Shown piece by piece: positions 3,323 through 44,692 of a DNA stretch of 46,235 nucleotides. The DNA is from Trichodesmium erythraeum GBRTRLIN201 (GTDB lineage: Bacteria; Cyanobacteriota; Cyanobacteriia; Cyanobacteriales; Microcoleaceae): the NCBI GenBank assembly GCA_018457135.1, contig JAGGDU010000060.1:1-46235 (forward strand), written 5' to 3'. A program made the position numbers and the translations under genes. The first letter of the stretch is position 1. Every line of letters starts with the position of its first letter. Below the pieces are notes generated by a model. The model was given only the letters and a program-made list of their open reading frames with translations. It was not told where the DNA came from and ran no database searches.

Positions 3323-4774
3323 TTAAAGCTGCCCAAAGCCTTTTTTCTTTTTCTGCTTCTTTTTCTTTTTACCGCTACCCGTACTTTGCTGGTTACGCCA
3401 ACCAGGAGGTGCTTTACCTCCTAGCATACCAGGCATTCCCATACCAGGCATTCCAGGCATCCCCATCCCTGATAGATCGCCTTGGCCCATTTTCTGCATC
3501 AGCGATCGCATTCTTTGGAAGTCACTCACTAGTTTACTCACATCTTTCTCAGCATAACCTGAACCACCAGCAATGCGTCGTCGTCGGGAAGGAGATTTCG
3601 CTAAAAGTTCGGGATTTTGGCGCTCTTGGCGCGTCATAGAATTAATCATAGACTCACAACGTTTTAGCTGAGTTTCTCCCTGCTGCAACTTATCATCACT
3701 TATTTTATTCATTCCTGGAATTAATTTCATAATTCCTCCCAAGGAACCCATATTCTTCATCAGTCGCGTTTGCTTGAGGAAGTCAGTAAAGTCAAACTTA
3801 GCTGAGAGGATTTTTTCCTGCATTTTTTCTGCATCAGCTATGTCAAACTCTTCCTGAGCCTTTTCTACCAGGGTAAGTACATCTCCCATTCCCAAAATCC
3901 TAGAAGCCATCCTTTCTGGGTAGAAAGGTTGTAGGGCTTCTACTTTTTCTCCCACCCCTATAAATTTTATCGGTTGACCAGAAATTCTACGGACTGATAA
4001 AGCTGCCCCTCCTCTTGTATCTCCGTCCATTTTAGTTAGGATCGCCCCTGTTATCCCAATTTGATCATTGAAGGTACGGGTCAATGTTGCAGCCTCTTGA
4101 CCTGTCATTGCATCTACTACTAGCAAGGTTTCTTGAGGCTTAACTGCTGCTTTAATTCTAGCAAGTTCTGCCATCATATCTTGGTCTATCTGTAGCCGAC
4201 CTGCTGTATCTATAATTACTATATCTATACCATCTGCCTTGGCCTTTTCCAACCCTTTCTGAGCAATTTCTACAGGGTCTATATCTGTACCTAATTCAAA
4301 TACGGGTACATCTATCTGTTTTCCTAAGGTAACTAACTGGTCAATAGCAGCCGGTCTATAGACATCAGTAGCTACCAGTAAAGCACTCCGGTTCTCTTTC
4401 CTTAAATGTAAGGCTAACTTAGCTGAGGCTGTGGTTTTTCCTGTTCCCTGTAAACCTGCCATCAGGACAATAGTTGGCGGTTGGTCGGCTTTCGCTAGGG
4501 GAGCATTACTTTCTCCCATTATCTGCGCTAGTTCATCATGGACGATTTTTATGAACTGTTGGTCTGGTCTTACTCCTGTTAATACATCTGCTCCTTTTGC
4601 CTTACTGCTGACTTCCGCTATAAAGCCTTTCACAACTTGTAAGTTGACGTCTGCCTCTAACAGGGCTCGACGTACTTCTCCCAGGGCTTGTTGGATATTA
4701 GAATCTGTTATTTTGTCTTGACCCCTTAGTTTTTTCCAGGCCACTTCTAAGCGGTCAGCAAGAGCTTCAAACAT
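3323..4774 (-). CDS. ffh: Signal recognition particle protein Ffh (SRP54)
   Basis: A 483-residue protein with the full N-G-M architecture: N domain (residues 1-90), G domain with G1 GLQGTGKTT near 108, DVYRPAA, DTAGRLQ and TKMDGDTRGG, then the M domain from about residue 320 (FTDFLKQTRLMKNMG). It ends in the Met/Gly-rich tail GMGMPGMPGMGMPGMLGG and a Lys-rich terminus. Ffh binds signal peptides and 4.5S RNA and delivers ribosomes to FtsY at the membrane. In phototrophs this includes targeting of membrane photosystem proteins. Length and motifs are normal. It stands 450 bases upstream of rpsP on the same strand. Confidence 0.97.
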   Translation of the reverse strand: MFEALADRLEVAWKKLRGQDKITDSNIQQALGEVRRALLEADVNLQVVKGFIAEVSSKAKGADVLTGVRPDQQFIKIVHDELAQIMGESNAPLAKADQPPTIVLMAGLQGTGKTTASAKLALHLRKENRSALLVATDVYRPAAIDQLVTLGKQIDVPVFELGTDIDPVEIAQKGLEKAKADGIDIVIIDTAGRLQIDQDMMAELARIKAAVKPQETLLVVDAMTGQEAATLTRTFNDQIGITGAILTKMDGDTRGGAALSVRRISGQPIKFIGVGEKVEALQPFYPERMASRILGMGDVLTLVEKAQEEFDIADAEKMQEKILSAKFDFTDFLKQTRLMKNMGSLGGIMKLIPGMNKISDDKLQQGETQLKRCESMINSMTRQERQNPELLAKSPSRRRRIAGGSGYAEKDVSKLVSDFQRMRSLMQKMGQGDLSGMGMPGMPGMGMPGMLGGKAPPGWRNQQSTGSGKKKKKQKKKKGFGQL

Positions 4775-10020: not shown

Positions 10021-11870
10021 CCTCTCTTAGACGTCCTTTTTCATAGGTACATCCCTGTTTTAGAATTAACATATCATTCACCCATAGGTATTCATCAGGT
10101 AAGTCCTGTAACTTAGGTCTTGTGTATGTTTTATTATCTAAAGCAGTTTTAGTATCATGGCAATGTCGGTGTAACAGTTGCTTGTTTTTAATTGAGTTAT
10201 CACCGTCTTCAGATCTTGGTTTTATATGGTCAACTTCCATGAGGTCGTTTGATCTGAAGGTTAACCCACAAAATGCGCATTTATTCTTTTGCCGTTTTAA
10301 CAGCGTTGTAACTTCTTTCCTAACACCTGGGTGTTTACCGATTCTACTGCTCCAATAAGTCCAATCGCCGTCTAATGGGGATTTATTACCTTTTACCTTG
10401 ATGTGTCTTTCTATGGCAACATCTGAGTGTTGGTTAAGTATATATTCGCCGTCGTTAAGTAACCAGTTTCTGGTGACTTTGTAGCGAGGAAAATACTTAT
10501 TTTTAACCCATTTGGCTGACTTGTTTGGATGCCGTCTACTTGCCCATTGACCTAGTCTTTTCCATAGGAGGCAATCTAATTTACTATATACCTCTTTACT
10601 GACTACGGTGGAAAAGTAATTGGCCCATCCTCTGATTACCGGATTAAGTTTAGCTATTAAAACTTTTGTAGGAGCGGTTTTGTATATGTCACATATATAC
10701 GCCAGCTTCCGGTAATGAGTTTTTATACTCTTAGAGGACGGCTTAATCAGTGTTTTGAACCCTTTTTTGGTTGTCTTAACCTTATATTGCCTAACATTAA
10801 ATCCTAAAAAGTCAAATCCAGGTTTATTCCCTTCATATTCCTCTAAGGTGTGGGCAATTTTGGTCTTTTCTGGTTTTAGTTCTAATCCTACCTGGTTTAA
10901 CCATTCCTGTATTACGGTTTTTGCTTGTAACAGTACTTTGATGTCTTTGTGTAAGATTACAAAGTCATCAGCATATCGTATTATGGATAATCCTCTTTTA
11001 TTATCGCGTTTTGTCCCTGGGAGGGTTTCAGCGTAATCTTCTAGGCATTTTTCTTTCCCCGTGTAGGGCGATGTTTGCTAGCAAAGGTGATATTACCCCT
11101 CCCTGTGGTGTACCTTCCACAGTGTTTGAGAATTGTTTATTGTCGAATACTCCAGATTTTAACCATTGTTTGATTAATCGTCTGTATGGAGATTTTCCAA
11201 TTTTTCCCATCAGTGCATCATGGTTAATTCGGTCAAAACATTTGGATATGTCAGCATCTAAAACATATTTTGTTTTTTGGTTAATGCTGACATAGATTGC
11301 TGCAATAGCATCATGTGTTGACCTCCGGAAAATACCATAACTATTAGGCTCAAAAAGTGCCTCCCATTCTGGTTCCATGCCTAACTTTACCAGTGCTTGA
11401 AGTGCTCTATCGTACATAGTGGGTATGCCTAATGGGCGTTTTTCTTCTCTACCTGGTTTTGGTATCCAGACTCTACGGGTTGGGCTTGCTTTAAGATGTC
11501 GTGACCTTAACATTTCTACCAAGTTAAATCTCTGCATTGGGGGAAGGCTTTTTATGCCATCTATACCAGCAGTTTTCTTTCCCTGGTTGTCCTGAGTCAC
11601 ACGCCTAACAGCTAGCAACCTTGCATAATAACTTTTGGTCAGAAGTTTTTGGTATTTACGCATTTTGCGGATTTCGCCACGGCTGGATGCTCTGTAAATT
11701 AACTTTTGCAACTTAAATACATATTTTTCTACCTTCTTCCAGTTAATGTCCTTCCATTTAAGATTAGGATTGACACTACATAGGTCCGGTATATCGTTTG
11801 TATCCCATGCTACGCTTAAAAATGGTTTAGGATTTTCTAAATTTCTTTTTAGGGTTTTAGCTTTGTTCAT
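9965..11870 (-). pseudogene. Group II intron reverse transcriptase/maturase/HNH endonuclease, frameshifted
   Basis: The N-terminal part (11870 down to about 11050) carries the RT fingers and GTPQGGVISPLLANIALHG. The frame then stops at 11028. A second frame continues with KCLEDYAETLPGTKR, the catalytic YADDFVIL, FDFLGFNVRQY, a domain X maturase segment (PVIRGWANYFSTVVSKEV) and an HNH domain (CAFCGLTF, then VDHIKPRSEDGDNS and H..CHD) ending at 9965. The two halves join if one G is removed from the GGGG run near 11055-11062; no other defect is visible. All catalytic motifs are intact, so it is a very recent pseudogene, a frameshifted-but-recoded protein, or a sequencing error. The intron RNA could still be mobilised in trans. 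Confidence 0.88.
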
Positions 11871-16303: not shown

Positions 16304-16691
16304 GGAATTTTTCAAGTTTTAACTTGCATATCAGATGCGATCTATATTTCATGTTTATCACATTTATCATTGGTTAAAAGAATTCATGCCATATCCATTA
16401 CACGACTAAAAAATGGAAAAAATCTGTCTAATTTATTACTTTGAACAAGTAGGGCAGCCATAACCCTTTAGAGTATTGTATTGGACAAATGATACCAAAT
16501 CCGGTTATAAATGTATTGCATTTTTCCAGTTTCTCTCTTTACCTTCAGCATAAATGACTTACCTTTACAGTAAAGGCAATTCCGAAAAATTGTGTTTAAA
16601 GCCTTTCCTACTCCTCAGACGACTTTTTAACTGTTTTTTTTACATTGTGTTATTCATGCATTAATTAATTAATTAATCAATTAATTAGTTG

Positions 16692-16834
16692 TGGGGGGCA
16701 GTGACCAGACAAAACATAGACCCGGAGGACTCAGCGCTCTCTTTGTGCACTGTGTGTGAAGCCTCAACCAAAGTCGGTACTTCGTATCGGTAGAGTTCCT
16801 GCTGTCCCTAACAGAACAGCAGGGGAGGATGTCA
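16692..16834 (+). mobile_element. Possible IS200/IS605 right-end / omega-RNA relic without tnpB
   Basis: A GC-rich island in AT-rich surroundings. It contains gaagcctcaac, a six-pair hairpin CGGTAC-TTC-GTATCG (16775-16789), an eight-pair hairpin cctgctgt/acagcagg (16798-16823) and the closing gggaggatgtca. This order of hairpins before a ggaggatgtca end is what I associate with the 3' ends of cyanobacterial tnpB elements. No tnpB frame is adjacent, so it would be an orphan end. The hairpins are seen directly; the family call is from memory. Confidence 0.45.
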
Positions 16835-16976
16835 ATAGTTTTCTTAAAAAAAGAAGTAATTTTCCTAATTTTTAGAGGTCAATTATTTATTTAACGTCGC
16901 TTCAATATACCACTATTGACGAGAATAAAAATAGTAGTTCTAACTGGGGAGGCAGTTTTTCCTTGTTAAACAAGTC

Positions 16977-17077
16977 AGGAATGAGAATTAAATAAAATTC
17001 TGAATTTTTGTGAAAGAACTCATATCTAATGAAGTTTGGGGAATTTAATTTTTGTAAATAATAAAATTCTCATTCCT
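16977..17077. repeat. 101-bp element with 13-bp perfect terminal inverted repeats
   Basis: aggaatgagaatt at 16977-16989 is the exact reverse complement of 17065-17077. The interior is AT-rich and non-coding. It is shaped like a small MITE; no second copy was noticed in the window. Confidence 0.55.
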
Positions 17078-17221
17078 TACTAACTTTTTTGAACTTTTTT
17101 CCTTTCAAAGTTAACTAATTATATATTGGCAACTTGGAAAAGGTTTGCCAATAATTTTTAAACTTCGGTTGTTCTTCCTAGAGTTGATATGATTTTCTAG
17201 AGTCTGGCTCAATATTTTTTG

Positions 17222-17935
17222 TTAAGAAATTGTCCTAACTATTGGTTTTCCATTGTCAATTTCTCCTACTAAAATTACATCTGCAACCCCTACAAATAAG
17301 CCATTTTCCAAAACTCCAGGAATATTATTTAAACTTTTTTCTAGCTCCCCAGGGTTATCAATGGAATCAAACTTGACATCAATAACCAAATTACCTTGAT
17401 CTGTGACTATAGGTCCGGCCTTTTTCACTCCCATCCGTACTTCTGGTTGACCACCCAATTTTTCGATCGCCCGAATTACAGGATTCATTGCCATGGGTAT
17501 AACTTCTACGGGCAATAAAAAAGTAGAACCCAATTTATCTACTAGTTTAGAACTATCTACTACGACAACAAACTTTTCTGCTAAACAGTCTACAATTTTC
17601 TCACGAGTATGAGCGGCTCCACCACCTTTAATCAGATTTTTTTGTGGGTCAACTTCATCTGCCCCATCAATGGCAATATCCATATAATCAACTTCATCAA
17701 GGGTTGTTAATGGTACACCATACTTTTTAGCTAATACGGTTGACTGGAAGGAGGTAGGGATACCTTTGATATCTTTGAGTTCACCTCTTTGGAGGAGTTC
17801 TCCTAAAAATTGAATCATGTAGGCAGTAGTTGAACCTGTGCCTAAACCTACTATCATACCAGATTTTACTTCCTCAGCAGCAGCTTTGCCGACTTGCTGT
17901 TTCATTAACGTGGTCGGGTCTTGTTCTGTTACCAT
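17222..17935 (-). CDS. rpiA: Ribose-5-phosphate isomerase A
   Basis: A 237-residue protein with the RpiA signatures GLGTGSTT (residues 30-37), IDGADEVDP near 90, and the active-site loop [14 protein letters not shown] near 103. It interconverts ribose-5-phosphate and ribulose-5-phosphate in the pentose-phosphate and Calvin cycles. It is a cytosolic homodimer in known cases. Length and motifs are normal. It stands alone on the minus strand with large gaps on both sides. Confidence 0.96.
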
Positions 17936-18529: not shown

Positions 18530-21500
18530 ATGAAAATGTTAGCTAAAAGTTATTTCAATACAGCAAATCAACTAAAAGATTCAGGACAACTTTATACAGC
18601 GATGATTGCTTATCAAAAAGCTTTGGCTATTAAACCAGATTATGTCGAAGCTTACAAGAAGCTAGCTGAAGTATACTTAATGCAAGGCAATTTTGATGCC
18701 GGGATTTCTGCTTGCAAAGAAGCAGTTAAAATTCAACCACATTTTGCTTCTGCTTATTTGACTTTAGGAAATATTTTTCAAAGTCAGAATTTACTTGAAA
18801 AAGCAATTAATACTTATTATGAGGCGTTAAGTATTGAACCAAATTTTGCACAAGTATATGCTAATATTGGTAGTGTTTATTATAAATTGGGCGAGTTTAA
18901 TTTAGCTATTTCTAATTATCAAAAAGCTTTAGAGATTAATTCAAATTTAGCATCTGTGCAGTTGATGTTAGGGAATGTATTTTCTTTGATAGGGGAATTT
19001 GAACAAGCAATTTATTGTTATCAAAAATTACTACAAATTAAGCCAAAGGATGCTCAAGCTTATTTTAAGTTAGCTGAGGTATTTGCTTTATATTCAAATA
19101 TTGAATTAGCTATTAATTATTATCAAAAATCTTTATCTATTAAACCAAATTATTGGGAAGCTTTTTTGAAATTATCTCAATTAATCAAACCTGAAATTAC
19201 TGATCAGGAATTGGATAAATTATTCACTCAATGGCAAAAATTTGCGCGGGAAAATAATCATAATATAAAGGAATATGTTGAGTCAGTAATTCAGAAACAA
19301 TCAACGAATTTTAAAGATCAGGAAAAATTGACAGTAAAACAATATAAAGAAGCTATTATTTCTGATGGGGAAAATGGAATTGAACTTGCTACTATCAATT
19401 TGATTTCAGAACAAAAATTAGATAATTTTGAGAATACTTATGATAATTTTTCTGTCCATGATGACGTAGAAGAAAACTTGAAAAAAAACGGTAAATTTAC
19501 GACTTTTGAATATCAAAAACTAGAGTCAGGGTTAACTTCACAAATATTAAAATTGCCAGCAGCAGAAGCTTATATAAATCAAGCTAATTTGGCTTTGAAA
19601 CAAGGAAATTTAGCATCAGCGATCGCCTCCTGTAAACAAGCTTTAAAAATTCAACCAGATCATTCTCCATCTTATGTAATTTTAGGGAATGCTTTTTACC
19701 AACAAAATAATTTAGAAGCTGCTTTGCATGCTTATCGTCAGGGGTTAGAAATTGACCCAGAATTGGCTGAAGTTCAGGGAAATATTGGTAGTGTCTATTT
19801 GCAGTTAGGTCAATATAAACAAGCACTTTTTCATTATCAAAAGGCTATTGACTTAAAACCTGGTTTGGCTGGTATTTATTGGAATATTGGCAAACTATTT
19901 CAATGTTTAGGAAAGGTTGATGAAGCTATTAATGCTTGGTCAAAAGCATTAGAAATTCAACCGGATATTGTGGAGGCTGACTTTCACTTTAAATTAGGTA
20001 ATACTCTTGTTAAATTGAGTAGAATTAATGATGCAATTAAGAGTTATGAGAGAGCAATTAATCTGAAGCAAGATTATACTGAAGCTTATAGTAATCTAGC
20101 TAATATTTTAGGTGAAAAAGGGGATAGAGAAGCAGCGGTTAATTATTATAATCAAGCACTGAAAATCAATCCAGAATTAAAATTTTTACATGAAAAGCTA
20201 GCTAATAATTTATTGCTGAAAGGTGACTATGATCAAGCAATAATTCATTATCAAGAAGCTATCAAATATAACCCTAAGTCTTATGATGCTTATGCTAACT
20301 TAGGAACAGCACTTTCTAATAAAGGATTATTAGCATTAGCACTAGAAAAATATTATAAAGCATTAGAACTTAAACCAAGCTGGGCAGAAGTATACTCTCG
20401 CATCGGACATATTATTAAACAAGAAAAAATGGAAGAGGCGATCGCTTTATTTGAAAAAGCAATTGAACTTAAACCACAGTTTGTTGAAGCTCATCAACAA
20501 TTATGTGATTTACTTAGTCATACAACTAAACTTGCTGTAGCTAGAAAAGCTGCAGATAATTTCTGTAATTCTTGTGGAGAAATAGCTCCTATTCTTTCAG
20601 GAACTGCCTTTTTATTTTCCTACTTTCAATCGGGAGTAAGTGAGGTAGCAAATGCTAAACTTTTAGAGGTCGAAAAAATCTGTTATCAGAGTTATAAAAA
20701 TTTCAGCGAACTAGAAATTAAGCTACTTTATGAAATTTTCTTGTTTGCCGTTTATCATCTTCGGGATGACTTAGAAAACAATTCAAATTTTTATAAGTTA
20801 ATCGCACAGCAATATTATCAAAATCGACCTAAAATTTATCAAACTACAAAAACTTATATTTCTAGTTCCCAATCATTAAAAATAGGATTCCTTTCTAAAC
20901 ATTTTCGCCGTCATTCTGTGGGTTGGTGTAGTGAGTATTTAATCAAAGAATTATCTCAAATTACACCAAACGTTTATCTTTATATTACAGGTCCGTTGAA
21001 GAGAGATGATGTTACTCAAAGATTTGAAAAAATGTCTGTTCAAACTTACTGGCCTAAAAAGTATCCTAATGGGTTTCCATGTTATACAGAAATTGTTGAA
21101 CAAATATTAGAGGATAAGTTAGATGTAGTGGTGGATTTAGATTCAACTACATTGCCAGTCAATGTTCATGTTCTCTATGAAAAACCTGCACCAGTTTGTG
21201 TTTCTTGGTTAGGTTTTGATGCGCCCTATATTTCTGAAAGTAATTACTTTTTATGTGACTGGCATACCCATCCTCAAGGAAGAGAAAAATATTATTTAGA
21301 AAAGTTAGTGAGATTACCAGAAACATCTGTAGCTGTGGGTGGGTTTAATAGTTGTTCGGTTGATAGAAATTCAACTAGAAATAGTCTCGGAATTGATTCA
21401 GATCAAATGGTTTATTTGTGTATAGCGCCCGGACGAAAAACTAATCCAAAAATGGTAAGGGCTCAACTGAAAATTTTGCAACATACCCCAAAAAGTATAT

Positions 21501-21994
21501 TAATTCGGAAAGGTCAGGGAGATGTAGATGTCATTTATCAAAGTTACCTTGAAGAATCTGAAAATTTAGGTATAGACTTTAATCGAATTATGTTTTTAGG
21601 GCAAACTCAAACAGAAGAAGAACATCGAGCAATTTATCAGATAGCTGATGTTTTGTTAGATTCTTATCCTTATAATGGTGGTACTCATAATTTAGAGGCT
21701 TTATGGTCAAATTTACCGATAATAACTAGAGCTGGTAAGCAATATTTATCTCGGATGGGTTATTCATTTTTGCAGAATGTAAATTTAGATGTAGGGGTTG
21801 CTTGGAGTTGGGAAGAATATACTGAATGGGGAATTAAATTGGGTCAAGATAATGGTTTAAGAAATTCGGTGCGGGAGCATTTGCAAAAGTCAAAAGATCT
21901 AGATAATTTAGCGCCTTTATGGAATCCTAAAAAATTGGCAAAAGAGATGTATCAGATATTTGCTGAACTTTTGGGTTCTCTTAGGGATATTTAA
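18530..21994 (+). CDS. TPR-repeat protein with SPINDLY/O-GlcNAc-transferase-like C-terminal domain
   Basis: A 1154-residue protein. TPR array 1 spans about residues 1-225 and is followed by a non-repeat acidic linker (225-345). TPR array 2 spans about 345-680 (repeats such as AIASCKQALKIQPDHSPSYVI). The C-terminal ~390 residues match GT41/SPINDLY: LKIGFLSKHFRRHSVGW near 785, LPVNVH, APVCVSWLGFDAP, LCIAPGRKTNPK and the closing ADVLLDSYPYNGGTHNLEALW. Family members transfer GlcNAc or another sugar to Ser/Thr of proteins or act in glycan assembly. The acceptor is unknown. The two TPR arrays resemble each other (both contain an NIGSVY repeat), which suggests an internal duplication. It is immediately upstream of the glycan gene region. 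Confidence 0.9.
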   Translation: MKMLAKSYFNTANQLKDSGQLYTAMIAYQKALAIKPDYVEAYKKLAEVYLMQGNFDAGISACKEAVKIQPHFASAYLTLGNIFQSQNLLEKAINTYYEALSIEPNFAQVYANIGSVYYKLGEFNLAISNYQKALEINSNLASVQLMLGNVFSLIGEFEQAIYCYQKLLQIKPKDAQAYFKLAEVFALYSNIELAINYYQKSLSIKPNYWEAFLKLSQLIKPEITDQELDKLFTQWQKFARENNHNIKEYVESVIQKQSTNFKDQEKLTVKQYKEAIISDGENGIELATINLISEQKLDNFENTYDNFSVHDDVEENLKKNGKFTTFEYQKLESGLTSQILKLPAAEAYINQANLALKQGNLASAIASCKQALKIQPDHSPSYVILGNAFYQQNNLEAALHAYRQGLEIDPELAEVQGNIGSVYLQLGQYKQALFHYQKAIDLKPGLAGIYWNIGKLFQCLGKVDEAINAWSKALEIQPDIVEADFHFKLGNTLVKLSRINDAIKSYERAINLKQDYTEAYSNLANILGEKGDREAAVNYYNQALKINPELKFLHEKLANNLLLKGDYDQAIIHYQEAIKYNPKSYDAYANLGTALSNKGLLALALEKYYKALELKPSWAEVYSRIGHIIKQEKMEEAIALFEKAIELKPQFVEAHQQLCDLLSHTTKLAVARKAADNFCNSCGEIAPILSGTAFLFSYFQSGVSEVANAKLLEVEKICYQSYKNFSELEIKLLYEIFLFAVYHLRDDLENNSNFYKLIAQQYYQNRPKIYQTTKTYISSSQSLKIGFLSKHFRRHSVGWCSEYLIKELSQITPNVYLYITGPLKRDDVTQRFEKMSVQTYWPKKYPNGFPCYTEIVEQILEDKLDVVVDLDSTTLPVNVHVLYEKPAPVCVSWLGFDAPYISESNYFLCDWHTHPQGREKYYLEKLVRLPETSVAVGGFNSCSVDRNSTRNSLGIDSDQMVYLCIAPGRKTNPKMVRAQLKILQHTPKSILIRKGQGDVDVIYQSYLEESENLGIDFNRIMFLGQTQTEEEHRAIYQIADVLLDSYPYNGGTHNLEALWSNLPIITRAGKQYLSRMGYSFLQNVNLDVGVAWSWEEYTEWGIKLGQDNGLRNSVREHLQKSKDLDNLAPLWNPKKLAKEMYQIFAELLGSLRDI

Positions 21995-24202: not shown

Positions 24203-25381
24203 TTAACTTATAACAGAAGCATCATATTGTTCAAAATAATTTTTTACAACCTGACGAATACCAGTCATAAATCTACCAGTGGAAAAAATATCTTTTCTCT
24301 TAAGTAGAGATGCTTGAAGTTTTTCCTGTATTTCTGAATTTTGGAGAATATTAGTGATTTTTTCTACTGCTTCATCTTGATTCTCAAAAAATAACTCTTG
24401 ATTTTCTTCTCCAAGTATCTCCACTTGTCCTGCTGCTGAGTGTCCTCGTTTATTTCTGACAATAGGTATTGCACCTGCTTTCATCATTTCTGCTATTGAA
24501 ATGCCAAATGGTTCTGATTTGTAGTGAATACCATATCTACACTTGGCTAGAATGTTAACATATTCTTTATAAGGCAGATTTTCATACAATTTTACCCATT
24601 CACTATTTTCATTGGCCATTTTTGTTAATGTTCGTTTATATTTCCACCCATATATTCCGGCTCCCCCTCCTGTAATGTAAAGCTTAACATCAAATCCTTT
24701 TTGACGAACTTTTTTCAAGATTTGAATAGCTTTATGAGGAGCTTTAGCTTCTGTCAATCTTCCGCTGCAAATAAAAGCATTTTCTTTTTGTTCCCAAGAT
24801 ATATTTTGATCGTTAAGTAAAACAGGTGGATACACAACTTTAGCATCAATAGCATATGTATCTTTTAAAACTTTAGATACTGCAAAGGAATTTGTAATTG
24901 ATATATTAAGTTTGACATTCTCCAAGGAAGAGTTAGAAATTTTACCATACAATCCATCATTAGGAATCACATTAATCCAATGAACATATTGAATTCCGAC
25001 ACGACCAAAGTCTACAGCATTGTAACCTGATAATAATAAATCATATTCCTGATTATGAGCTTTCAGATGGCGCAGTAGAAGATGCATTACTAAGATTGCT
25101 AAATCTCTATTATTGGCAAATAAAAATCTTAACAAAGTTTTAGTTACTGTAGGAAAGATTGCTCTAATCTTTACCATTTCCTGGGAAATTTGAGTTCCAT
25201 ACATGGAATTGAGTTTGTCAAAATCTACATCAAATACAGTAAATAGTGTCAGATCATATGTTTCTTTTAAAGCTTCTAATATCCAAAGACAAACTGCTTC
25301 TGCACCTCCACCAGAAAACAAGGGATAAAAGACAGCAACTGACTTTTTTGTAGGATTTTTTTCTAAGCTCTCAATACTCAT
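24203..25381 (-). CDS. Glycosyltransferase family 4 (GT-B fold)
   Basis: A 392-residue protein. The N-terminal domain has the Gly-rich donor loop FYPLFSGGGAEAVCLWILEAL. The C-terminal domain has ICSGRLTEAKAPHKAIQILKK, a GGGAGIYGWKY loop and the EX7E-type segment SEPFGISIAEMMKAGAIPIV, with the two Glu residues that bind the nucleotide sugar. It is a retaining GT4 enzyme in lipopolysaccharide, exopolysaccharide or N-glycan-like assembly. The Alg11-like look of the C-terminal part (YKSEPFGISIAEMMKAG) is noted, but the acceptor is unknown. Length is normal and it is cytosolic, probably membrane-associated. Confidence 0.88.
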   Translation of the reverse strand: MSIESLEKNPTKKSVAVFYPLFSGGGAEAVCLWILEALKETYDLTLFTVFDVDFDKLNSMYGTQISQEMVKIRAIFPTVTKTLLRFLFANNRDLAILVMHLLLRHLKAHNQEYDLLLSGYNAVDFGRVGIQYVHWINVIPNDGLYGKISNSSLENVKLNISITNSFAVSKVLKDTYAIDAKVVYPPVLLNDQNISWEQKENAFICSGRLTEAKAPHKAIQILKKVRQKGFDVKLYITGGGAGIYGWKYKRTLTKMANENSEWVKLYENLPYKEYVNILAKCRYGIHYKSEPFGISIAEMMKAGAIPIVRNKRGHSAAGQVEILGEENQELFFENQDEAVEKITNILQNSEIQEKLQASLLKRKDIFSTGRFMTGIRQVVKNYFEQYDASVIS

Positions 25382-31484: not shown

Positions 31485-32255
31485 TTATCCTTTAAGTTCA
31501 ACAATACCAACTCTTTCAATAGCAGCACTAGCTTTAACACGATCGCTAAGTGCAATAGTTTTCCAAGCATACTTCATATCTTCGGAAAAATAAATATCAT
31601 CTAATAAAACAATTCCATTAGGAGCTAGCCTAGCAACAACAATTTCAAACTGCGAAAAAACAAATTCACTGGTATGTATCGCGTCAATAAACGCCATATC
31701 TATTTGGCGATCGCTCCCCAGATAAGCATCTATATTATCTTCAAAAGTTCCATTAACTAACTGAAATCTATTGCTAATTCCAGATAAGTTTTTCCTAGCA
31801 ATTTCTGCCCAAACCTCATTAGGATCGAAACTCAGTAATTCTCCAAAATTATTACCTTCTAATCCTGAAAGCCAATACATTCCTGAAACACCAAATGCCG
31901 TACCAAATTCTACCACAACGGAAGGTTTTCTTTTTTGCACCAGGTGAGCATAAAAATCACCTACTTTGGCTTGAGTTCGCACTTGATTTGCTGTACGAGT
32001 TGCTTCTTTCACATCCCTGGGGTAATTTTGCAGATTTTCATATCCTTCCCAAAGCGGTTTAGGACCGAGTTGGTTAGCAAGATGTGCTAATTCTTCTATT
32101 TTTTCCCTCATCAAAGCTTTGGGAATGGGGACAATTGGTCCTTTGAAGTTATCTAAAAGCCAGCTATCTTCTTTCTTAATCCAATTTATCTCTAAAGACT
32201 GGGGGGAAATAGCTTTTTGTAATTGTTTGGTGTATTTATTTTTTATGTGTCTCAA
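31485..32255 (-). CDS. Class I SAM-dependent methyltransferase (Methyltransf_24-like)
   Basis: A 256-residue protein. The SAM-binding motif I is VVEFGTAFGVSGMYWL, followed by FDPNEVWAEIARKNLSG (motif II Asp), DMAFIDAIHT and the post-motif GIVLLDDIYFSEDMK. The fold matches O-methyltransferase-like enzymes of glycan and secondary-metabolite clusters; the substrate is unknown. The only available start is TTG at 32255. Just upstream, an A7 run lies in the frame break between a CTG and CGTGACTCTTTG, so an original N-terminus (KKRDSLRHIKNK...) may have been shifted by one A. The conserved core is intact. Confidence 0.8.
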   Translation of the reverse strand: MRHIKNKYTKQLQKAISPQSLEINWIKKEDSWLLDNFKGPIVPIPKALMREKIEELAHLANQLGPKPLWEGYENLQNYPRDVKEATRTANQVRTQAKVGDFYAHLVQKRKPSVVVEFGTAFGVSGMYWLSGLEGNNFGELLSFDPNEVWAEIARKNLSGISNRFQLVNGTFEDNIDAYLGSDRQIDMAFIDAIHTSEFVFSQFEIVVARLAPNGIVLLDDIYFSEDMKYAWKTIALSDRVKASAAIERVGIVELKG

Positions 32256-33396: not shown

Positions 33397-35238
33397 ATGC
33401 CAGGTTTAATTGGTTTTACTCGGTCTGATGCGCTTTACGATTTTTCTCCAACTTATTTAAAAAAAATGGTAGAGATGACCATCCATGGCTCTTTTTATCG
33501 GCAGGATGAGTTATTCTCTGATGAAGCAGTTTGTGCGACTCGTTCCCATGTGAATGTAATTCAAACAGATGACCAACCATACCAAGATGGAGAGGTTTTA
33601 GTCTGGTTGGATGGGGAGTTTTACAAGCAGGATAAGCTCTTTAGTCAGTATAACTTATCTCAACAAACAGATCCCGTTTTACTGGCATCTTTGTATCGAC
33701 AAACTGAGGGTTTAAACTTTTTGCGATAGGTTGAAGGGGTTTATGTCGCTTGTTTGTACGATCGCAGAAAACAAAAACTCTATTTAATAAGCGATCGCTA
33801 CGGGATGGGTCGTCTCTACTGGACAGTGTACCAAAATGCCCTTGTTTGGACGGGGGAACTGAAGTCCCTTTTGTCTCTTCCTAACTACCAACCCAAAATC
33901 GACCGCGCTCCGATGGAAGACTTTTTGGGGCTACGATATATGATTGGAGATCGCTCTTGGTTTGAAAATGTCGAACTCCTCCCTGCAGCAACCGTTTTTA
34001 CCTGGGACATCCCAGGAAAAACCCTCTCTCGAAATCGTTATTGGGGATGGGATGAACTTACTCCCCTCACTACTCCTCCCCCAGAAAGCGAAGCCGTGGA
34101 AACCCTCGGACATTTATTCGTTGATGCTGTACAAAGTCGGGTTTATCCTGGAGAAAGAGTAGGACTTACCCTTAGTGGAGGACTAGACTCCCGTGCTATT
34201 TTAGCGGCCATGCCCGATCATAGTCATCCCGTTAATACTATTACCCATGGTCGTAAAGACTGTGAAGATTATCGCATTGCTGCCCAAGTTGCTGCAATTG
34301 CAGGAGATAACAGTTATTTTGCCGAAATGAATGCTGAAAATTGGCTATTTTCTAGGGTAAAAACCATCTGGGAAACCGATGCCTACGGTAGCTTTATTCA
34401 TTTTCACTTTTTGTCATCATTAACCCAAATTAAAACTCAAGACTTATTTAACATAAATTTACATGGAGCATGGGGAGATGTAACTGCAATGAATATTTTT
34501 GATGGTCTAAAATTTCCTGATGTAGTTAACAAACGCTTAGGATTAGAAAAATTTGCTCTTTCTTTACAGCATAAAAATTCAGTTTTTGAGAGAATGAATA
34601 ATTATTTTAAATTGTGCCATTCTTCTCCTCATATTATTTGGATGGACCATCGCATTCGTCGCTTTATTTTCAAAGATATTAATGTTAGCTTAGTACAGGG
34701 TATAGAAACAAGAGCTCCTTTTATAGATTGCTCTTTACAGGACTTTTTATTTACTCTAAGTTCTACTTTTTCCGAAGATTCTAATCTTTATAAACCTATG
34801 CTTTGTCAGTTTTTTCCGAAATACTATCAAACCATTCCTTGGCAAAGTACTGGAGAACCGATTAGTCCCCCAAATTTCACACGTCAGGTTCAAAAAAAAT
34901 TAGTGCAATTCCAAACCAAAGTCACTGGCAAATTAAACCAATTTGGATTATCCTTCCCTCAAGCAAATTCCTCGAAAAAACGAAAACCTGACAAAGACTA
35001 TGCCAATTATGCGGAATGGATGCGTCAAAATCCCGCTTATTCCCTCTATCAAACAATTTTAGAAAATCCCAATGCCCTTTATCCTGAATATTTATCTCCT
35101 GAAGAAACCAAAAAAATCAAACAAAACTGGCAACGTCATTTAAACGGCGAAGACTTAGGCGATAGCGTCAGTCTGGCCTTAACACTTGAACTATGGCTGC
35201 AACAGGTTTTTAATCAAAAATATCGTACTGGGGAGTGA
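33397..35238 (+). pseudogene. Asparagine-synthetase-like protein interrupted by one in-frame TAG; glutaminase Cys absent
   Basis: A 613-codon frame is broken only by TAG at 33727-33729 (LNFLR, stop, VEGVYVACLYDRR). The codon fits a former CAG (Gln). The N-terminal Ntn-hydrolase domain starts MPGLIGFTR, with Pro where AsnB has the nucleophile Cys2. The C-terminal domain has the PP-loop SGGLDSR (about 260-266 of the joined frame) for ATP binding and RAPFIDCSLQDF. Lacking Cys2, it cannot hydrolyse glutamine as AsnB does, which is typical of ligase-type relatives (including lasso-peptide cyclases) and of degenerate copies. The first ~900 bases are visibly GC-richer than 34400-34830, suggesting mosaic origin. 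It lies inside a duplicated epimerase end. Confidence 0.82.
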
Positions 35239-35341: not shown

Positions 35342-36292
35342 TTATGAATAAAGCGATCGTATCCACTCCCACTCTCGCTTCAAACCTTCGGCCAAAGAAA
35401 TCTGGGGTTGATAGCCCAAAATTTTCTGTGCTTTAGAAACATCGGCACTAGTATGACGAGCATCTCCCCTAGCTTTTTCTACAAAATTTTTTTTAATTGG
35501 ACGTCCTACTATTTGCTCCATGATATTAATAACTTCTGCTAATACTACCCGACTACCCCCACCTATATTAAATACCTCACCTACTGCTAATGGTACTGTA
35601 GCGGCTAATAAGTTAGCTGCGACTGCATCGCTGATAAAGGTAAAGTCTCTAGTTTGCTGAGCATCTCCATAAATAGAAATAGGTTCATCTTGTAAAATCC
35701 ACTTAAAAAATTTATGAAATGCCATGTCAGGTCTTTGCCGGGGACCATATACTGTAAAGTAGCGTAAATAGACGCAGGGCACACCAAAATTATGATGATA
35801 TAACTTGCCTAATTGTTCTGCTGCTAACTTAGTAATTCCATAAGGAGATACTGGTTGAGGACAAACAGTTTCTGGGGTGGGGAAAGTTTCAGCATTACCA
35901 TATACAGAAGAACTAGAAGCATAAACTAATCTTTTCAAATTAGGAGCATCTTTAGCAGCTTCTAAAATTATTTGAGTCGCATCTATATTACGTTCTGTAT
36001 AATCAAAAAAACCTCCACCCCAACTAGCACGAACTCCAGCTTGAGCAGCTTGATGATAAATTATGTCTACATCTACAAGTAATTCTGACCAATTTAAAGA
36101 CTGAATATCATTTTCTATTAATTGAAAAGCGGGATGGTCTTGAAATTGAGAAATATTCTGACGCTTCAAAGTAGGGTTATAGTAATTATTAAACTCATCT
36201 ATTCCTATTACTTTGTTATCTTGATTTAATAGAGTTTCTGCTAAATGAGATCCAATAAATCCACCTACTCCTGTAACTATAGTATTACTCAT
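35342..36292 (-). CDS. NAD-dependent sugar-nucleotide epimerase (UDP-glucuronate 4-epimerase-like)
   Basis: A 316-residue extended SDR protein with the NAD motif GVGGFIG (residues 8-14), the active-site YASSSSVYG segment, the catalytic Tyr151-x3-Lys155 in SPYGITK, the substrate loop YGPRQRPDMA and RDFTFISDAV. It is of normal length and likely cytosolic. It would convert one UDP-hexose or UDP-uronate to its 4-epimer for the surrounding glycan genes; the exact sugar is not determined. A decayed copy of its 3' end lies at 32322. Confidence 0.88.
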   Translation of the reverse strand: MSNTIVTGVGGFIGSHLAETLLNQDNKVIGIDEFNNYYNPTLKRQNISQFQDHPAFQLIENDIQSLNWSELLVDVDIIYHQAAQAGVRASWGGGFFDYTERNIDATQIILEAAKDAPNLKRLVYASSSSVYGNAETFPTPETVCPQPVSPYGITKLAAEQLGKLYHHNFGVPCVYLRYFTVYGPRQRPDMAFHKFFKWILQDEPISIYGDAQQTRDFTFISDAVAANLLAATVPLAVGEVFNIGGGSRVVLAEVINIMEQIVGRPIKKNFVEKARGDARHTSADVSKAQKILGYQPQISLAEGLKREWEWIRSLYS

Positions 36293-39357: not shown

Positions 39358-40539
39358 TTATAATTTATGACTTCTTGGTGGATTCGGCATTAGTTCTTGC
39401 AAACAATCTTTCAAAGCATATATAACTTGCTCTTGTTGTGGAGTGGAAAGTTCAGGAAAAATAGGCAAGGACAAAACCTGATGGCACACTTGTTCTACTA
39501 CTGGCAATTGATAGTTTACCAAAGATTTGTAAACAGGTTGTAAATGTAAAGGTGTAGGATAGTAAACCGCTGAACCTATTCCCCTATTTTGTAAATTATC
39601 ATGAACTAAATCACGCAAATAATTAGAAAAATGAGATTTTGTCGTAGTTTCTAACTGTTTACTTTTAAGCATAATTGTGTATTGATTCCAAACACATCTA
39701 CTTCCAGATAACTCTTGAGGAGGAACTACAGCAGTTATAGTACTAAAAAATTTATGGTAATGATTTGCTAATTTACGACGTTGTTCGTTCCAACTATCTA
39801 ATAATGGTAATTTTATTTGCAGAATTGCAGCTTGTATGGTATCTAGACGACTGTTAATACCAATGTCTTGAGAAAAATATTTGGCAGACTGTCCATGATT
39901 TTTTAGTATTCGCGCTTGAGAAGCGATCGCTGCATTATTTGTGGTCAGAGCTCCCCCATCTCCAAAAGCTCCTAAATTTTTAGTAGGAAAAAAACTAAAA
40001 CAACCAACATCACCAAAACTCCCGACTTTTTTCTGGTGCCATTCTGCTCCTGTAGCTTGGGCACAGTCTTCAATAACTATTAAATTGTGGGCACGAGCGA
40101 TCGCCATTAACTGTGTCATATCTAAAGGTTGACCAAATAAATGTACTGGCAAAATAGCTTTTGTTTTTTCAGTTATCGCTAGCTCAAGTTTTTGAAGATC
40201 TAAGTTAAAAGTCTGGGGGTCAATGTCAATAAAAATTGGAGTTGCTCCTACTGCACTAATGACTTCAGCAGTAGCAAAAAAAGTGAAAGGAGTAGTAATT
40301 ACTTCATCCCCAAGCCCAATATTCATAGCTCGTAAAGCTAGAAACAGAGCATCAGTGCCAGAGTTACAGGATACACAATGAGATACATCTATGTATTTAG
40401 CAAATTCTTGTTCAAACTCATCAACAATAGAACCGCCAATATAACGACCAGAGCTAAGTACCTCTTGAACTCTAGTATTTACTTGTTCTTTGATTATTTC
40501 ATACTGTTGTGTTAAATCTAGGGGGGGAACATTAGCCAT
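39358..40539 (-). CDS. DegT/DnrJ/EryC1/StrS-family PLP aminotransferase (sugar aminotransferase)
   Basis: A 393-residue protein with GTDALFLALRAMNIGLGDEV, the PLP-aldimine region VIEDCAQATGAEW and the catalytic Lys187 in CFSFFPTKNLGAFGDGG, which is characteristic of the family. It transaminates a keto-sugar nucleotide to an amino sugar, for example in cell-surface or antibiotic sugars. The amine donor is usually Glu or Gln. It fits with the epimerase and the transferases as a supplier of modified sugars, though no sugar-nucleotide dehydratase partner is visible. Length is normal. Confidence 0.9.
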   Translation of the reverse strand: MANVPPLDLTQQYEIIKEQVNTRVQEVLSSGRYIGGSIVDEFEQEFAKYIDVSHCVSCNSGTDALFLALRAMNIGLGDEVITTPFTFFATAEVISAVGATPIFIDIDPQTFNLDLQKLELAITEKTKAILPVHLFGQPLDMTQLMAIARAHNLIVIEDCAQATGAEWHQKKVGSFGDVGCFSFFPTKNLGAFGDGGALTTNNAAIASQARILKNHGQSAKYFSQDIGINSRLDTIQAAILQIKLPLLDSWNEQRRKLANHYHKFFSTITAVVPPQELSGSRCVWNQYTIMLKSKQLETTTKSHFSNYLRDLVHDNLQNRGIGSAVYYPTPLHLQPVYKSLVNYQLPVVEQVCHQVLSLPIFPELSTPQQEQVIYALKDCLQELMPNPPRSHKL

Positions 40540-41083: not shown

Positions 41084-41860
41084 ATGGATATAATTAGATT
41101 AACACTTAGTGATGTAGCTATGGCTTTAGGACTTATTGCTATAACTATGGGTCTATCAGCTTGGCAAAAATTAGGATTAGAATGGCAACTATTAATAGCC
41201 ACAATTCGTACTATTGTACAATTAATATTTGTTGGCTATGTATTAACAATAGTATTTACAATTAAACAACCTTGGTTAATTCTTGCTGTTTTAATAGTTA
41301 TGTTAACAGTTGCTTCTGTAGTTTCTAGAAATAGAATTAGTCAAAAAATACCTCAATTATTACTTTTAGTTTGGAGTTCTATTTTAACGAGTACAACTTT
41401 AAGTATTAGCTATACAAATTTATTGGTAATTAAACCTGAAAATTGGTATGAACCTCAATATTTAATTCCTTTAGTGGGAATAGTATTAGGAAATGGGATG
41501 AATGCAGCAGCGATCGCTGGAGAAAGACTTGTCAGTACAATTAACTCTAATTCTGTAGAAATTGAAACTTATTTAAGCTTAGGATCAACCCCTGAACAAG
41601 CAATTGTTAAATACAGAAAAGATGCTATTCGTGCTGCATTAATACCTACTTTAAATTCAATGATGGTAATTGGAATTGTCACCCTTCCTGGTATTGTTAC
41701 TGGTCAGTTATTAAGTGGTATTAATCCTCTGGATGCTGTAGCATATCAAATGTTAATTATGTTTCTTTTGACTTTTGCAAATTTAGTTACAACTTTATTA
41801 GTTACTTACGGTTTATGTAGACAATTTTTTAATCAAGATGCCCAACTTAAAAATTTATAA
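41084..41860 (+). CDS. fetB: FetB-like (YbbM/UPF0014) iron-exporter permease
   Basis: A 258-residue protein with several membrane helices (about 7-25, 36-60, 65-82, 92-110, 125-145, 190-212 and 218-245). It has the family hallmarks ATIRTIVQLIFVGYVL and VGIVLGNGMNAAAIAGERL, and IVTLPGIVTGQLLSG near the end. FetAB exports iron in E. coli; the family is UPF0014. The matching ATPase (FetA) is not in the window, so the transporter would need a partner elsewhere. The function in cyanobacteria is inferred. Confidence 0.85.
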   Translation: MDIIRLTLSDVAMALGLIAITMGLSAWQKLGLEWQLLIATIRTIVQLIFVGYVLTIVFTIKQPWLILAVLIVMLTVASVVSRNRISQKIPQLLLLVWSSILTSTTLSISYTNLLVIKPENWYEPQYLIPLVGIVLGNGMNAAAIAGERLVSTINSNSVEIETYLSLGSTPEQAIVKYRKDAIRAALIPTLNSMMVIGIVTLPGIVTGQLLSGINPLDAVAYQMLIMFLLTFANLVTTLLVTYGLCRQFFNQDAQLKNL

Positions 41861-42524: not shown

Positions 42525-43571
42525 CTATGACTTATTTTTGTAATAGGATAAATTTGGATAAAGTTGAAAAGCATTTTGATAATAAGTGGAAGCTTCATCT
42601 AATTTTCCTTGTTTCTCTAAAAGCACTGCTAAGTGATAGTGAGTCCAGGAAAAATCAGGTTTGATTTTGATAGCTTGATAGTAAGCTTCTACTGCTTCTT
42701 TGTAGAGATTATTTTCTGCAAAAATACTACCTAGGGTATGATAATAAGCCCAATATTTTTGAGGATTAATTCCAATTGCTTGAGCATAATTAATCAAAGC
42801 TCTATCTAATTTTCCTTGCTTTTGTAATAGATATCCTCTTTGATTATAATATTCTTCTGTATAATTTTCTGGTTGTTTTTTTGATTTGCCTACAACTGAA
42901 ATATTGTGATTATTTTGATTCTCATTGTTATAACCTAAGAAATCAATAATACTTGAGTTACATTCGCGGATAATTTCCATTTGTTCAGCGTTTAAAAACT
43001 CAGAATAAGGGCGTTGATTATCTCTGAAAAATATTTTGGCTTTTGGTAAATATCCATCGAATGGTATATTTAATTTATCACATATAAAAGTTAAATCTGA
43101 GAGAAGACTTTCATACTTACCAACAAAACCAACTACTGCTTTATCGTTGATTGTGTAAATGTGCCAGTTATTGTTTGTAGATGAATTAGGATAATAGTTA
43201 TTTTTCAGCCAGTTATCAAATTTAATAGGTTTGTTTTGTTTACTAAAATAGTAAACAGATATAGCTCTATCAAAAGGATTTCTTTCAAAACAAAACTTAT
43301 AGTAGGTATTCCAAATATAAGGTTCTATTTTTAGAACTTCTTGAGAAGTAATGTGATTAAAATATTTTTGATATACATTTCCCTGAGCATCAAAATCTAA
43401 ATGATTTTGTGGTTTTTTTCCGAGAAGTTTTCTGATAGCTTCATCTTGCAAACTAATAGGAGTTATTATGTCATCATTACCACAAAATCTAGATAAAGAT
43501 ATTTAAACTGATGTACCAGCAGTTTTTTTAGTTTTTAGGAAAATAAATTTATATTTGTGGGATATGATCAT
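42525..43571 (-). pseudogene. Sulfotransferase fused to C-terminal TPRs, interrupted by one in-frame TAA near its start
   Basis: The true start is ATG at 43571: MIISHKYKFIFLKTKKTAGT carries the P-loop-like PAPS-binding KTKKTAGTSV. Codon 23 is TAA (43503-43505), after which the same frame continues ISLSRFCGNDDIITPISLQD and FCFERNPFDRAISVYYF (the Sulfotransfer_2 3'-phosphate motif), then three TPRs (residues about 240-348; for example GYLLQKQGKLDRALINYAQA). GAA to TAA is a single-base change. A caller finds only the 308-residue remainder from a TTG at 43451 and loses the PAPS site. It would sulfate a glycan or protein if it were functional. Confidence 0.85.
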
Positions 43572-43753: not shown

Positions 43754-44692
43754 ATGAATCTGCTTATAAACGTTCATGTAGTTGATGACACTAATGTAGG
43801 AGATTTATTCTCTTCTCCATTGAAATATTTCGAGTTTCCTCAATCTACCACAATCACTATTGATATTCGTTATCTTGATCAAGAATTAGCAAAAATTGCA
43901 CAACAGCTTCAGAATGGTAGTCTAGGAGACTACAATTGTCTTTGCTTTATTGTAGGTGGAGGTGGAGTCCTGTTCCCCCGTTTTGTCAACAATTTTGTGG
44001 CCTTGCAGCAATTTAAAGCCCAGTATCAAAATCAGATCCCTATTAAGATCATAACCTGGGGTATTGGCCAACAAATTTATCGCACAGGCCTTGATCGTCA
44101 GCATTACTATCAAGACTTTGACTACTCAGAATATTTGCAAGGGTTTGACCTGTGTGGAATACGTGATTTCGAGCATCCAAACCCTAATTATCATTGGGTT
44201 CCCTGTGCTAGTTGTATGAGTGATCAGTTTGATAAACCTCGTTCGGTGCAGCATGAATTTGTGATCTTTTCCCACAAAAAATTTGAGATTAAATTAGATA
44301 AGTTCCCTCGTATGACTAATGGCACCCATAAATTTAGTAAAGTTTTAGACTTTTTAGGATCAGGGGAAACTATTTTAACTAGTTCTTACCATGGAGCCTA
44401 CTGGGGCACCTTATTAGGTCGTAAAGTTCTGGCCTTTCCTTTCAGTAGCAAGTTTTATACTCTGAAGCATCCTGCTGTTAACTTTGTAATAGACAGTTGG
44501 CAGACATCCAGACGAGAACTAAAGGTTTTGGGTAAGCAACTCTACGACTTTGGCTATAGCAAGCACTTTAGCTGTAACACAAAAGGATGGCATGATGCAT
44601 TAGTGGGTTGTCAAGTCTATTCCAACTTGCTCCAAGCCTACCGTGATCGTAGTCAATGGTATTACCACGAAGTTGTAAGTCATTTGAGCTAG
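43754..44692 (+). CDS. Polysaccharide pyruvyl transferase-like protein
   Basis: A 312-residue protein with the family's N-terminal NVGDLFSSPLKYF, the central FIVGGGGVLFPRF and IITWGIGQQ, and the C-terminal donor-binding GETILTSSYHGAYWGTLLGR followed by KVLAFPFSSKFY. These are the hallmarks of PF04230-type transferases, which add ketal pyruvate (or sometimes a sugar) to polysaccharide units. There is no signal peptide. It is divergent to the sulfotransferase gene 180 bases away, and both would modify the outer glycan. Length and key residues look intact. Confidence 0.82.
   Translation: MNLLINVHVVDDTNVGDLFSSPLKYFEFPQSTTITIDIRYLDQELAKIAQQLQNGSLGDYNCLCFIVGGGGVLFPRFVNNFVALQQFKAQYQNQIPIKIITWGIGQQIYRTGLDRQHYYQDFDYSEYLQGFDLCGIRDFEHPNPNYHWVPCASCMSDQFDKPRSVQHEFVIFSHKKFEIKLDKFPRMTNGTHKFSKVLDFLGSGETILTSSYHGAYWGTLLGRKVLAFPFSSKFYTLKHPAVNFVIDSWQTSRRELKVLGKQLYDFGYSKHFSCNTKGWHDALVGCQVYSNLLQAYRDRSQWYYHEVVSHLS

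Follow-up and report, generated by a model that had tools for sequence, protein, structure and literature searches.

Does a frame that reads as a complete sulfotransferase-TPR gene, and is interrupted by a single stop codon directly behind its cofactor loop, still encode an enzyme? The question arises on the minus strand of the window, by which we mean the whole stretch of DNA analyzed here, namely one entire contig of 46235 bases from a genome of 7.2 Mb in 241 contigs, whose completeness is put at 99.97% by tool estimate. This genome is referred to as G000 and the other G numbers denote compared genomes. We conclude that the frame is very probably a unitary pseudogene, separately inactivated in most lineages of its clade. 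As a pseudogene it is of an ordinary kind; what the comparison adds is a loss that is specific to one gene and has occurred several times within one clade.

The frame around codon 23

The entire frame (42525..43571, minus strand), as delimited by translation, Pfam matches and comparison with an orthologue, comprises 348 codons plus its stop. It translates as MIISHKYKFIFLKTKKTAGTSV, the internal stop and then ISLSRFCG..., with 325 further codons following the stop before the final TAG. The sole internal stop is a TAA at codon 23 (43503..43505, minus strand), directly behind the stretch KTKKTAGTS. Based on the translation, the comparison with the G001 orthologue and the structural model of the latter, the 22 codons in front of the TAA (43506..43571, minus strand) encode a first strand and this P-loop-like stretch, which we take to be the 5'-PAPS-binding motif. 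Behind the TAA lies the remaining sulfotransferase domain (42927..43502, minus strand; codons 24-217 as numbered in the G001 gene), which includes RNPFDRAIS, presumably a 3'-PAPS-binding-like motif, followed by a linker and C-terminal TPR repeats (42528..42926, minus strand). The P-loop and the 3' motif are separated in G000 by the TAA and do not lie within one translated product. A mechanical ORF caller chose as its start the TTG of codon 41 (43449..43451, minus strand), and the ORF it lists at 42525-43451 on the minus strand, 308 aa in length, is missing the first 40 codons.

The sequence-only reading of this locus had proposed that the TTG start conceals the true N-terminus, and comparison with relatives bears this out. 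The leading 22 residues are identical to those of the G001 orthologue at 21 positions, and the match between the two frames spans residues 1-337 with 77% identity. This match over the full length makes a chance origin of the leading motif implausible and, as judged from the sequence, the stretches before and after the TAA are one gene. The expectation of a single frame carrying one TAA, with Glu at the same position in homologues, likewise holds. Codon 23 is GAA (Glu) in all eight orthologues found, which shows the lesion to have been absent from the ancestor. In a broader alignment (A2) the position is E in 31 of 34 rows and D, A or Q in the others, these rows having been hand-picked from the open ones among 80 homologous loci, which are themselves the best 80 of at least 234 confirmed relatives. 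In 74 of the 80 loci the frame stays open over 205 codons or more, counted from the start of the match, and the six in which it does not (L052-L056 and L085) all belong to Okeania or Trichodesmium. Given the conserved Glu at codon 23 and the open frames in 74 of 80 loci, homologues align straight across the stop. A start at the internal TTG or after the stop was seen in none of the 80 loci, and codon 41 itself is not conserved, being TTT in G001 and G005 and TGG in G004; the TTG at 43451 is accordingly rejected as the true start.

When the stop is replaced by X, the frame matches Sulfotransfer_2 (PF03567) over residues 2-186 with 37.6 bits against a cut-off of 22, and several TPR models in Pfam match between about residues 239 and 344. 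The model of the intact G001 protein (344 aa, mean pLDDT 79.6) places a strand at residues 9-11 and a helix at residues 19-27, with the P-loop-like stretch between them and codon 23 inside the helix. A Foldseek search of the PDB with this model gave no match at E <= 0.001 among the 393 returned at E up to 10; the top rows are sulfotransferases, with E from 3.7e-3 and TM scores to the query of 0.27-0.35 among the top ten. A sequence-profile search against solved structures returned three chains, the best at E 0.11. The short bacterial form of Sulfotransfer_2 proteins (about 230 aa) shares with the G000 gene the same domain, an above-cut-off Pfam score and the common start MIISHKxKFIFLKTxKTAGTSxEIxLS; unlike this form, the G000 gene has TPR repeats fused to the domain and a break at codon 23. 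Among the 74 open relatives, 73 have frames of 205-246 codons, and the remaining one is the G001 orthologue with 344.

We propose that the ancestor of the compared Trichodesmium and Okeania genomes carried, at this locus, the gene for a Sulfotransfer_2 enzyme that depended on PAPS and ended in a TPR tail, and that most lineages have probably inactivated the gene separately, the G000 lineage by the nonsense codon 23 immediately past the cofactor P-loop. In G000, a ribosome starting at the true ATG would make a peptide of 22 residues, and the product of a downstream restart would be without the first strand and the P-loop, and also without some or all of the next helix. To judge from the fold, a restart product without the P-loop should not bind PAPS, and we infer that no active enzyme arises from the G000 locus. 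The 308-aa sulfotransferase/TPR protein reported by the caller, which is without a cofactor loop, is better recorded as a pseudogene.

Lesions at the orthologous locus

A search of 59 genomes (G000 included) with the sulfotransferase part found the orthologue in eight others, the named loci being those of Trichodesmium MAG_R02 and MAG_R03 and of four Okeania, and a further search of 61 genomes of the family revealed no additional orthologue. Judged by these named loci, G000 itself is a member of the Trichodesmium/Okeania clade. According to an excerpt of PMC9189399, MAG R02 is T. thiebautii and R03 is T. nobis-like. Eight of the nine orthologous loci are broken, by stops at differing codons, by frameshifts and by an apparent MITE-like insertion, and only that of G001 (Trichodesmium MAG_R02) is fully open, over 344 codons. 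With codons numbered in the register of the G001 gene, the lesion of G000 is the TAA at codon 23. In G004 there are stops at codons 70 (TAA), 78 (TAA) and 138 (TAG), and G005 has lost 30 bases at codon 60 and, with a shift of frame, 5 bases at codon 100, in addition to having a TAG at codon 138. G012 has a TGA at codon 138 and a TAA at codon 198, and G030 the TAA at codon 198. G023 carries a TAA at codon 42, has its frame shifted by the loss of 34 bases at codon 244, and has a TGA at codon 311 and a one-base insertion; G027 carries a TAG at codon 88, has lost one base at codon 310 and has a TGA at codon 311. In total, one or more private lesions are present in each of seven lineages if G030 and G012 are taken together, subject to a possible exchange of lesions.

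The sulfotransferase part of G003 is open, and its tail, which contains a TGA, is found on a separate contig. The two contig ends (L040 9230-9407 and L195 1-60) hold the flanks of a short element whose near-inverted ends are GTAAACATTCA and TGAATGCTTAC and which has a repeated CACAAAAT, the pattern expected from the insertion of a miniature element. From these sequence features, the break in G003 appears to be a miniature element inserted within the sulfotransferase-TPR gene, and a 23-base overlap indicates that the two contig ends are probably adjacent. Short end stretches of the element also match elsewhere in other loci. In G006, a genome that is 81% complete, the gene is reduced to remnants: the flanking genes lie approximately 0.5 kb apart at the locus, and the matches are confined to two pieces, one of 80 bases within the gene and one of 90 bases spanning its 3' end.

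Certain lesions recur. Codon 138, a TGG for Trp, has become TAG in G004 and in G005 and TGA in G012; under a simple mutation model, and tested post hoc, three such stops among 10 events have a P of 0.013, and the TAG of G004 and that of G005 could be a single event. The TGA at codon 311 is common to G023 and G027 and absent from G030, which is the nearer relative of G027, and thus some lesions may have been exchanged. A second sulfotransferase-TPR copy, likewise broken, by a frameshift near codon 127, is present in Okeania SIO2B3 (G012:C195:572714-573335; L026, L036 and L085).

The inactivation hits the gene, not the region. On one side of the frame, the convergent gene for a UPF0014 membrane protein (41084..41860, plus strand) serves as a synteny marker and is open in the eight genomes where it was found; on the other, a divergent gene (43754..44692, plus strand) for a 312-aa protein with no Pfam match at E 0.001 adjoins the locus in G000, G001, G005 and G006. 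Across 11 neighbouring ORF groups, which were hand-picked and in which pairs without a match are not counted, all 67 gene-genome pairs are open, or 56 of 56 once the 11 self matches are set aside. The Pfam families among these neighbours are ABC1 kinase, DegT, UPF0014, GntR, dienelactone hydrolase, S1 and nitroreductase. Rows outside the picked set, whose matches are partial or interrupted, are G027 3667-4167 (coverage 0.66 in three pieces in G030, one stop in G012), the pair G030 16632-17546 / G027 169-972 (coverage 0.73 and 0.83) and the ORF at 31485-32255 of the window, whose coverage is 1.00 in G005 and 0.59 in G004, where the match reaches the end of the compared sequence. The open neighbours lead us to reject a general decay of the region and, since they stand on those same contigs, also poor assembly as the cause everywhere.

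Other genes of the same family give a second comparison. Twelve genomes contain 76 Sulfotransfer_2 matches at E <= 0.001, of which 8 are to this gene, 1 is to the G012 paralogue and 67 are to others. In-frame stops within the matched stretch occur in 4 of the 8 rows of this gene compared to 5 of the 67 other matches, a count that excludes frameshifts, in which the G012 and G030 matches end before the stop and G005 has no row; the G001 and G003 rows have no in-frame stop within the match. The eight other Sulfotransfer_2 matches in G000 are all without a stop, so this genome still encodes sulfotransferases of the family. These other genes are too distant for a search with the sulfotransferase part, which gives a single match in G000 at E <= 0.001; a second functional copy, for which no candidate was found by this search, is therefore rejected. 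The search of the genome with the full frame, which gave 143 matches dominated by TPR proteins, was used only for locating the window.

Broken frames have precedent in this clade. An excerpt of Larsson 2011 (PMC3141437) gives 252 of 1202 paralogs in T. erythraeum as pseudogenes, and excerpts of PMC3141437 and PMC3655545 describe pseudogenes and a large non-coding share in this species. The G000 gene resembles these pseudogenes in its broken frame; unlike the paralog pseudogenes as they appear in the excerpt of PMC3141437, it has no second copy that could be found in its genome, and its breaks differ across the clade. Within the titles and opening lines of abstracts in partial literature lists, we found nothing on this gene or its repeated loss. 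A gene lost repeatedly beside open neighbours represents a natural experiment on which sulfation step bloom-forming cyanobacteria can spare.

Selection on the two parts of the gene

Rates were estimated by maximum likelihood with a codon model in our own script, with stop and gapped codons masked, G003 codons after 236 dropped and G012 left out, this being identical to G030 in this gene bar its extra stop. On the G000 branch, codons 24-217 (the head) have an omega of 0.893 versus 0.262 elsewhere, which departs from a single ratio (2dlnL 7.86) and is indistinguishable from an omega of 1 (2dlnL 0.05). Parsimony places 20 nonsynonymous, 3 synonymous and 1 nonsense change in the head on this branch, with about 1.6 nonsense changes expected without constraint. 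The pairwise dN/dS between G000 and G005 is 0.73 for the entire gene and 1.05 for codons 61-217, as compared to 0.135-0.332 for six neighbours in the same pair of genomes. The head appears to have been unconstrained for much of the G000 branch, and this, in combination with the differing lesions in relatives, supports the pseudogene that the sequence-only reading had offered as one of its two explanations. Its qualifier "very recent" is not supported, as a head omega of 0.89, about neutral, means that the loss need not be so.

The TPR tail on the same branch still looks to be under constraint, with an omega of 0.24 (2dlnL 5.79 versus omega 1) and a nonsynonymous to synonymous ratio of 7:6 by parsimony. 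For the entire gene the G000 branch has an omega of 0.55 against a background of 0.28 (2dlnL 3.95 versus one ratio, 2.68 versus 1). When G000 and G005 are taken together, the entire gene has an omega of 0.53 and rejects 1 (2dlnL 5.9), and the head has an omega of 0.88 for which 1 is not rejected (2dlnL 0.13). The seven broken tips together reject an omega of 1 over the entire gene (2dlnL 46.5), as do G003 (4.8), G004 (15.7) and G023 (20.1) singly, which implies that these three copies were constrained for most of their history. The three come from Okeania-side genomes, where the gene was probably constrained until late and recombination is likely. Between G023 and G030 (L043, L041), synonymous divergence is 0.03 in the tail as against 0.44 and 0.34 in the head, and 0.13-0.21 in six neighbours. 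This suggests allele exchange at the sulfotransferase-TPR gene in Okeania, and the patchiness of the divergence means that the single-tree assumption of the rate tests is probably broken by recombination.

The repeated loss may itself have been selected, which is compatible with a pseudogene: dropping the sulfation step would sometimes be of advantage (phage, grazers, colony surface), and broken and intact alleles would coexist in populations. The many lesions specific to this gene beside open neighbours, the long constraint on the G003, G004 and G023 copies and the allele exchange suggested by the patchy synonymous divergence are all consistent with selection, but a simply relaxed need accounts for the same pattern, and we consider selected loss a tentative, on balance unlikely, addition. 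An extended form of this proposal, in which the gene would be a loss-of-function hotspot of the clade, its activity repeatedly selected against and its broken alleles recombining, and in which the TPR tail would have been kept as a protein of its own in the G000 lineage, strikes us as doubtful. It is improbable that, with the head dead, the tail persists as an independent protein started internally, for instance at the ATG of codon 200. The tail omega of 0.24 differs from 1, G000 has no stop after codon 23, and the ATG is present in all nine orthologues; against this, head and tail rates on the G000 branch differ only at 2dlnL 3.43, with a Fisher p of 0.046 for G000 as one tip among the 8 tested, the Met at codon 200 may be no more than a part of the domain, and lesions also break the TPR part of G003, G023 and G027.

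A sequencing or assembly error in an otherwise intact G000 gene would concern just one codon, and several of the relatives are metagenome-assembled, but the unconstrained head on the G000 branch is beyond what one miscalled base can cause and the relatives are broken too, with open neighbours on the same contigs, which leaves such an error very unlikely. Read-through of the TAA by a suppressor tRNA or programmed recoding to give the full-length enzyme, the other explanation in the sequence-only reading, is scarcely credible: the frame is otherwise open across 348 codons and its TPR part looks constrained on the G000 branch, but none of the eight orthologues has a stop at codon 23, the stops of relatives lie elsewhere and comprise TAA, TAG and TGA alongside frameshifts and an insertion, the sulfotransferase part is without visible constraint on the G000 branch, no anticodon tta, cta or tca occurs among 34 tRNA hits (150 of 562 candidates scored, tRNA-Ile missing too), and recoding at codon 23 is rejected because the stops are conserved neither in place nor in type.

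A possible glycan setting and other features of the window

The ancestral enzyme may have sulfated a surface or extracellular glycan. A Pfam scan of 21 of the 30 other window ORFs of at least 100 aa identified genes for a glycosyltransferase (24203-25381), a methyltransferase (31485-32255), an NDP-sugar epimerase/dehydratase type protein (35342-36292) and a DegT aminotransferase (39358-40539). These lie 3-19 kb from the locus, interspersed with or flanked by the UPF0014 and ABC1 kinase genes, and are compatible with a glycan setting. An excerpt of the synechan paper (PMC8205485) places sulfotransferase genes of the PF00685, PF03567 and PF13469 families mostly in exopolysaccharide clusters and describes sulfotransferases as abundant in Trichodesmium. 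XssA and XssE of synechan are, like the product of the ancestral gene, cyanobacterial sulfotransferases, a likeness drawn by description only from the excerpt (PMC8205485).

Three further ORFs of the window deserve mention. At 18530-21994 on the plus strand, a TPR protein of 1154 aa ends in a Glyco_transf_41 (OGT-like) match. A 494-aa ORF with a TTG start at 33754-35238 on the plus strand matches the 354-position Asn_synthase profile over no more than its first 93 positions. Lastly, a 280-aa ORF at 11028-11870 on the minus strand matches RVT_N as well as RVT_1, the latter over its first 135 of 205 positions, and represents a truncated reverse transcriptase, presumably of the group II intron type.
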